36,099 nt of DNA from Candidatus Peregrinibacteria bacterium CG1_02_54_53 (GTDB lineage: Bacteria; Patescibacteriota; Gracilibacteria; Peribacterales; Peribacteraceae): positions 1 to 36,099 of the forward strand of contig MNWP01000013.1 in NCBI GenBank assembly GCA_001872575.1, given 5' to 3'. Both the position numbers and the translations under genes were made by a program. Positions 12,780-18,238 of this stretch are shown in pieces (position 1 is the stretch's first letter; every line of letters starts with the position of its first letter). The notes beneath the pieces were generated by a model, which saw only the letters and a program-made list of their open reading frames with translations, was not told where the DNA came from and did not search any database.

Positions 12780-12828
12780 TGGCTTGCCATGAGAAGGTGA
12801 AGCCGACGAATGGTACCCCCGGCAGGAC
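12780..12828 (-). repeat. Truncated duplicate of the tRNA-Arg 3' end plus flank
   Basis: These 49 bp match 12868-12916 with one mismatch. The copy includes the last 18 nt of tRNA-Arg (T-arm edge, acceptor 3' strand, CCA) and 31 nt beyond. The 39 bp between the two copies carry the dispersed element core CCTTCGTTAAGACTCAGGGC. Confidence 0.85.
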
Positions 12829-12867
12829 CCTTCGTTAAGACTCAGGGCAAGCTCGAACTGCAATCGA

Positions 12868-12916
12868 TGGCTTGCCATGAGGAGGTGAAGCCGACGAATG
12901 GTACCCCCGGCAGGAC
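12868..12916 (-). repeat. Genuine tRNA-Arg 3' end and flank, second copy of the 49-bp direct repeat
   Basis: The pair of 12780-12828, offset by 88 bp; it overlaps the intact tRNA gene. Confidence 0.85.
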
Positions 12917-12974
12917 TCGAACCTGCGGCCAACAGGTTAGAAACCTGCTGCTCTATCCACTGAGCTACGGGGGC
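12899..12974 (-). tRNA. tRNA-Arg (anticodon UCU)
   Basis: Minus strand: acceptor GCCCCCG pairs with CGGGGGT (first pair G-U), D-arm TAGCTCAGTGGATAGAGC, anticodon loop TTTCTAA giving UCU, T-loop GTTCGAGTCC. The discriminator is A and CCA is encoded. A TACACT box lies 10 nt upstream. Confidence 0.95.
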
Positions 12975-17774: not shown

Positions 17775-17826
17775 GGGATGAATGCAGTGCAGTTCACTGT
17801 TTCCTAGTGTATCCTCAAAGTGCCTA

Positions 17827-17886
17827 CGGGGCGTAGCTCCCTCCTTCGCCCGCGTTCGCGGGACTTCGGAGAGCGGGCAGTTGGCT
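17827..17886 (+). pseudogene. Interrupted 5' fragment of tRNA-Pro
   Basis: Bases 17827-17839 (CGGGGCGTAGCTC) equal the first 13 nt of tRNA-Pro at 17977. After a 38-bp insert rich in CTTCG and CGCG, 17878-17886 (CAGTTGGCT) continues with the next bases of the same tRNA. The similarity then ends. The insert resembles the dispersed element family. Confidence 0.6.
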
Positions 17887-17976
17887 GTCGAGAATCGCGC
17901 ATGCGAGGCGAGCAAAAAAACCGCCATAACACTCTAGCCCACGACGGATGGTTTTGATGTATCCTGTCTATAAGTC

Positions 17977-18053
17977 CGGGGCGTAGCTCAGTTGGCTAGA
18001 GTGCCTGCTTTGGGAGCAGGAGGCCGCGCGTTCGAGTCGCGCCGCCCCGACCA
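17977..18053 (+). tRNA. tRNA-Pro (anticodon UGG)
   Basis: Acceptor CGGGGCG pairs with CGCCCCG, D-arm TAGCTCAGTTGGCTAGAG, anticodon loop TTTGGGA giving UGG, T-arm GCGCGTTCGAGTCGCGC. The discriminator is A and CCA is encoded. A TATCCT/TATAAG region at 17960-17974 may be its promoter. Confidence 0.96.
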
Positions 18054-18216
18054 TTCGACTCGCTTCGCTCGCTCATGGTCTTCGACCACCGTTCGAGTTG
18101 AGCTGGGTGAGCTCGACCATTCGATTCCGTTCCTCACGGAGCTACGTCGTGATAGGTTCCCCTGTGCAACTTCCATGAGGCGCGACGAGAAGTTTATCCC
18201 GAGCGCTGCCGAGGGA

Positions 18217-18238
18217 AGTCGCGCCGCCCCGACCATTC
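18217..18238 (+). repeat. Duplicate of the tRNA-Pro 3' end
   Basis: These 22 bp match 18035-18056 exactly: the T-stem edge, acceptor 3' strand, CCA and 3 nt of flank. The interval 18057-18216 contains CTTCG/CGCTC-rich repeat sequence and a third short CGACCATTCGA copy near 18113, but no gene. Confidence 0.85.

Follow-up and report, generated by a model that had tools for sequence, protein, structure and literature searches.

The window analysed here is a stretch of 36,099 nucleotides that forms one of the 42 contigs of the 1.37-Mb genome of Candidatus Peregrinibacteria bacterium CG1_02_54_53 (G000). It carries one intact copy of the tRNA-Pro(TGG) gene, which lies among partial copies of itself and a series of hairpins, and a second instance of such a copy beside tRNA-Arg(TCT), given in the last line below.

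17810-17815 (+): -10-like TATCCT, 11 bp ahead of the 5' fragment and belonging to the older (outer) leader, a putative promoter element
17827-17839 (+): 5' fragment, tRNA-Pro nt 1-13, 13/13 identical
17840-17877 (+): REP-like palindrome of 38 bp, CCTCCTTCGCCCGCG..CGGGACTTCGG.., between nt 13 and 14 of the fragment
17878-17886 (+): 5' fragment resumed, tRNA nt 13-21 (CAGTTGGCT), C13 being counted on both sides
17887-17913 (+): second hairpin (GTCGAG..CGAGC) at the D-loop end of the 5' fragment, a module that recurs at other Peribacteria loci
17930-17942 (+): inverse copy of the 3' side of the tRNA D-arm (CACTCTAGCCCAC, against 17991-18003), covarying with the tRNA across Peribacteria
17960-17965 (+): -10-like TATCCT of the inner leader, putative in its role
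17977-18053 (+): intact tRNA-Pro(TGG), found by ARAGORN and Rfam
18051-18080 (+): hairpin beginning at the CCA end (CCATTCGACTCG..CTCGCTCATGGTC), of a class that also follows the CCA of about 19 further tRNAs in the four genomes
18114-18132 (+): decayed second copy of the CCA-tail (CGACCATTCGATTCCGTTC), 84% identical to 18048-18066
18179-18189 (+): 5' strand of the T-stem of the 3' fragment (GGCGCGACGAG), predicted to pair with GTCGCGCC in the 3' copy
18190-18216 (+): REP-like hairpin AAGTTTATCCCGAGCG..CGAGGGA, occupying the T-loop of the 3' fragment
18217-18238 (+): 3' fragment, the final 19 nt of tRNA-Pro (CCA included) followed by TTC, 22/22 identical to 18035-18056
12811-12828 (-): 3' copy of tRNA-Arg(TCT) nt 59-76 (GTCCTGCCGGGGGTACCA), 18/18 identical, 70 bp downstream of its gene (12899-12974, -)

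An earlier note on this DNA had described the tRNA-Pro gene as bracketed by its own partial copies, with a 38-bp insert between the two upstream pieces, and our analysis bears out both statements, the insert being the palindrome at 17840-17877. The downstream match of 22 nt is likewise perfect, although the copy had been taken for the last 22 nt of the gene and in fact consists of the last 19 nt followed by TTC from beyond the CCA. To these pieces we add the 5' strand of the T-stem, the T-loop hairpin, the inverse D-arm, the hairpin at the CCA end and the decayed copy of the tail. The type of T-loop hairpin seen at 18190-18216 also occurs in T-loop copies of tRNA-Gly(gcc) in G000 and of tRNA-Pro in G010 and G020, and the 3' copy of tRNA-Pro is kept exactly in more than one genus. 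At the second locus of the window, tRNA-Arg(TCT) is followed by an 88-bp unit (12811-12898, -) that contains a CCA-tail hairpin, a REP in a T-loop copy and the 3' copy, and the start of this unit repeats again. As a separate observation, the tRNA-Pro gene appears to be inverted in G003 and G002 (L011 and L014) relative to G004 (L020), between genes that by eye are hydrolase-like and glycosylase-like.

A scan for partial tRNA copies, as the earlier note had proposed, was run on the flanks of all tRNA genes found in four congeneric genomes, G000 and three others (181 genes), and it shows the window locus to be one case of a genome-wide pattern. The scan covered the stretches around tRNA genes, and a copy was defined as an exact match of at least 9 nt, a 5' copy having to start at nt 1 within 300 bp upstream; the control was a set of 7646 mismatched-isotype pairs from the same genomes, with shared ancestry among the four congeners ignored. 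An upstream copy that starts exactly at nt 1 was found at 26 of the 181 tRNA genes compared with 6 of the 7646 control pairs, and a downstream copy that ends exactly at the 3' terminal base at 19 of 181 compared with 15 of 7646. Within G000 alone, 15 of 45 tRNA genes have a 5' copy and 7 of 45 a 3' copy. The test of chance expectation that had been put forward gave the same picture for longer matches, since prefix matches of at least 13 nt lie upstream of 22/181 tRNAs and in 0/7646 mismatched-isotype flanks, and suffix matches of at least 18 nt lie downstream in 7/181 and 1/7646, respectively. These mismatched-isotype controls rule out chance matches as the source of the copies. The polarity that had been claimed, a 5' copy upstream and a 3' copy downstream, is also confirmed, with the 3' end present in none of the 181 upstream flanks and the 5' end in one of the 181 downstream flanks. 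Upstream copies mostly end at nt 13 or at nt 16-22, several 3' copies begin in the T-loop, and the units that bear the fragments measure 80-265 bp. Most of the genomes compared are MAGs, and an assembly artefact is unlikely because the pattern is found in independent MAGs of several genera and in the closed, single-contig congener G003.

The distribution of the pattern is narrow. The locus pattern (CTCTAGCC together with tRNA-Pro) gave 18 matching stretches among 84,980 GTDB genomes, most of them titled Candidatus Peribacteria or Peregrinibacteria, two titled less specifically (Patescibacteria group bacterium and 'bacterium') and none from another lineage. The nt-13/14 hairpin pattern, TAGCTC-palindrome-AGTTGG, was present in 10 of 288 genomes of a class-wide sample, all from the same family as the window, and its reversed form in none of the 288. 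The idea of a class-wide property is rejected by this confinement. Two genomes of other families have 5' copies at 0/36 tRNA genes and 3' copies at 2/36, and 3' copies alone may therefore be more widespread than the window's family.

Orthologous loci among the congeners allow the order of events to be followed. Empty sites with the same outer leader are present in G004 for Pro, Arg(gcg) and Asp and in G003 for Gly(ccc) and Lys(ttt), and at the Pro locus the leader that directly precedes the intact tRNA in G004 is the outer leader of the window. The tRNA-Gln locus has gone through one round in G003 and two in G000, the newer round lying nearer the gene. For the 5' fragments, which the leader comparison covers, the inner leader is more similar to the outer leader of the same gene than to leaders in mismatched pairs (mean 14.75 versus about 11.9 with two near-exact cases removed; 0 of 20,000 permutations), and the leader pairs of Ile, Val(cac) and Lys(ctt) show no clear similarity. 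Because inner leaders resemble the outer leaders of the same gene, the leader appears to have been duplicated together with the gene's 5' part. The tandem units are exact at Arg(tcg) and near-exact at Pro in several genera, where they look like the ordinary expansion of a repeat of about 100 bp. In G001 and G003 the Pro fragment runs through nt 1-21 without a break, whereas the window copy has the palindrome at nt 13/14; since both orthologous fragments lack the hairpin, the window's palindrome probably entered a pre-existing fragment and not a working gene. A precise loss of the palindrome in G001 and G003 is possible and less economical than its entry in the window. At most loci the order of hairpin entry is a presumed one.

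These results bear on the scheme in which elements inserted into the tRNA and an intact gene was restored each time, as the earlier note had suggested. Much of it stands, since one intact gene always remains, hairpin elements lie within the copies, rounds have been repeated and empty orthologous sites exist (G004 for Pro). The step in which an element inserts into the tRNA gene itself fares less well, because the restored part is not simply element-borne, the inner leader being a diverged copy of the outer one, and because the nt-13/14 hairpin is missing from the orthologous Pro fragment in G001 and G003; simple element-borne restoration is weakened by both.

The palindromes occupy positions that correspond to loops or junctions of the tRNA, namely nt 8 (Asn), nt 13/14 (Pro, His, Met, Gly, Val, Ile, Ala, Arg), nt 17-22 (Lys, Thr, Arg, Pro, Asp, His), the anticodon region (Asp and a pseudogene in G157) and the T-loop (Val, Arg, Met, Pro, Gly). 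The pseudogene in G157 is near full-length, lies downstream and has insertions at the D-loop, the anticodon region and the T-loop. A perfect stem of at least 6 bp follows within 50 nt of 13 of the 26 5' copies compared with 51 of 896 control windows, and larger loops are seen in several of the others. The palindrome family CCNCCTTCG..TWCGG..GGGCARGC is present in 0-10 copies per genome with an inner stem that differs in nearly every copy. About half of its examined copies fall within tRNA copies; their usual site is nt 13/14, where the orientation is the same every time. Another class of hairpin, TTCGACTCG-variable-CTCGCTCATGGT or TTCGTCG-variable-CTCCTCATGGCAAGCCA, is joined exactly to the 3' end of about 20 tRNA genes in the four congeners, including 18051-18080 of the window, and CATGG occurs in the first 60 nt after the tRNA 3' end in 26/181 cases versus 7/181 further away. 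In G000, a tRNA-Asn that the tRNA searches do not list (L269, contig C5, 1059-1363, minus strand) apparently carries a group I intron within it (Rfam RF00028, 78.4 bits) and is preceded by a hairpin-riddled 5' fragment. The tRNA-Val units of G015 are two in tandem, with identical leaders and different hairpins. In the same genome, a tRNA-Val(tac) locus with two hairpin units (L274, contig C8, about 398500-399180) is doubled as a large inverted repeat, so that two intact genes face each other.

Taken together, we lean towards the explanation that both pieces are truncated duplicates, the upstream one of the leader and the 5' part of the gene and the downstream one of the gene's 3' part, and that they arose by tandem duplication, with palindromes lodged in the fragments. 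One breakpoint of such a duplication would lie inside the tRNA, in the D-loop or the T-loop, and the other outside, which would leave exactly one intact gene with a 5' fragment upstream or, as we extend the mechanism by inference, a 3' fragment downstream. Once a fragment existed, repeats of about 100 bp would multiply by ordinary slippage or unequal exchange, and short REP-like palindromes at the breakpoints would accumulate at the loop positions of fragments that are dispensable and presumably without function, and on which elements with a preference for tRNA loop sequence would land. A duplication should copy non-gene sequence along with the fragment, and this is what we find for the 5' fragments, the leaders of which are homologous and at Arg(tcg) exact. 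The exact 3' copy of tRNA-Pro in more than one genus looks as if it were constrained, which counts against duplication with inert fragments.

Nearly every fragment has a palindrome at its breakpoint, and the breakpoints cluster in the D-loop and T-loop. This regularity exceeds what duplication at random would give, so that the palindrome may itself bring the duplication about; it suggests either that palindromes promote breaks or that elements insert and duplicate their surroundings. That the tandem Val units of G015 share leaders and not hairpins suggests in turn that hairpin and duplication arise together. It is possible, though we regard it as unlikely, that a palindromic mini-element inserts into the D-loop or T-loop and that the insertion itself makes a long target duplication (the leader with the 5' part, or the 3' part), restoring the gene at once. 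Such an element would account for the single palindrome per unit at a fixed site and in a fixed orientation, for the different hairpins in the two otherwise identical Val units, for hairpins directly at the fragment ends and for the share of about half of one palindrome family that lies within tRNA fragments. It is opposed by the orthologous Pro fragment of G001 and G003, which lacks the nt-13/14 hairpin, and by the closed genome of G003, which has fragments and hairpins and yet no Y1 transposase genes. Genes of this type are present in four of the five congeners searched, and palindromes of the tRNA-fragment type were seen beside none of the six Y1 loci examined, which speaks against a mini-element of this kind and rules against RAYT-driven REPs. 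A fuller version, that palindromic mini-elements of Peribacteria target tRNA loops and with each insertion copy the neighbouring end of the gene, and that the tRNA-Pro module became a covarying leader pairing with the D-arm, is in our opinion more doubtful; if true, mini-elements could spread into essential single-copy tRNA genes and leave the host alive.

We consider it improbable that the upstream module is functional, as a conserved leader made of the inverse D-arm and the 5' fragment through which tRNA-Pro transcripts starting upstream would be misfolded or regulated. The strongest pointer to a possible function for part of the module is sequence covariation of the inverse D-arm with the tRNA in Peribacteria, read beyond the eight bases fixed by the search pattern: relatedness ignored, the permutation p value is 0.0005 for 14 unique pairs, and the covariation is 0.146 compared with 0.085 for shuffled and at most 0.083 for slid pairs. 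The first position read beyond those eight bases is A-U in 10, G-C in 7 and G-U in 2 of 19 sequences and broken in none, the consensus fold uses the arm, and the fold predicted for 17827-18053 has the outer acceptor strand base-paired to the 3' strand of the tRNA. That fold is not unusually stable (z -1.4), and DNA-level correction of inverted repeats can also give covariation. The inner -10-like element lies downstream of the inverse D-arm, which places the arm outside a transcript from the inner promoter; with this element between the two arms, pairing would occur only in transcripts starting further upstream, or in DNA. Clear inverse copies are found mainly for Pro tRNAs, and inverse copies as a rule for all tRNAs are rejected.

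It is very improbable that the fragments are attL/attR scars of tyrosine-recombinase elements that target and restore tRNA genes and have lost their bodies. In favour of such scars, the copies end exactly at gene boundaries beside a restored intact gene, as in tRNA-targeting integration, and 5'-half attB sites are known for archaeal pTN3-like integrases according to the available text of PMC8371274. Against them, no integrase-bearing element lies between the two copies, the units measuring 80-265 bp, and genes of the phage-integrase family number only 0-2 in each genome searched (one in closed G003) and offer no candidate. In addition, as many as a third of the tRNA genes have such copies, the leaders are homologous, and palindromes, not element ends, separate the copies. 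Neither the integrase-family genes searched per genome nor the Y1 genes of the four congeners that have them, with six loci examined, could be tied to fragment formation.

It is unusual that about a third of the tRNA genes of one bacterial genome lie beside their own partial copy. Such inserts could displace or duplicate the promoters of tRNA genes, provide the transcripts of these genes with extra hairpins and take up space between genes in a genome that is reduced. With clean empty and filled sites among congeners, Peribacteria offer a testable system for the origin of palindromes and tandem duplications around essential single-copy genes.

Palindromes in the tRNA loops of truncated self-copies were not described in the literature searched, which covered few subscription journals, and the accessible text of the Peribacteria genome paper, on complete genomes, counts 46 tRNA genes and does not mention the self-copy pattern. 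Several known systems are comparable. REP palindromes, in the excerpted text of PMC3733652, are short imperfect repeats tagged with GTAG or CGTC, with conserved ends and variable stems, mostly intergenic and in some cases inside larger palindromes. The Peribacteria palindromes resemble those of REP/RAYT systems in being short, imperfect and multi-copy with variable stems, and differ from them, as portrayed there, in their fixed loop positions in tRNA fragments, in their 0-10 copies per genome and in the Y1 genes checked, which are not flanked by the same repeats. As to the tags, a GCGTC end is seen on some hairpins and the adjoining tRNA D-arm contains GTAG, and the main palindrome family has no constant tag. 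Tyrosine-recombinase integration, including the 5'-half attB of pTN3-like elements, which the same portion of PMC8371274 calls rare, is alike in having a partial tRNA copy on one side, the intact gene on the other and exact boundaries. Unlike the integration described there, the units reported here have no element body or integrase, affect both gene ends and many tRNA genes, and duplicate the leader too. In Pseudomonas fluorescens, a large-scale tandem duplication gave rise to a new tRNA gene, as summarised in PMC7661048. That case shares with ours tandem duplication as a means of changing tRNA copy number, whereas here the duplications are short and partial and leave fragments. As far as the consulted portions of these sources describe them, REP palindromes, tRNA-targeted integration and tandem tRNA duplication each share one face of the Peribacteria pattern.
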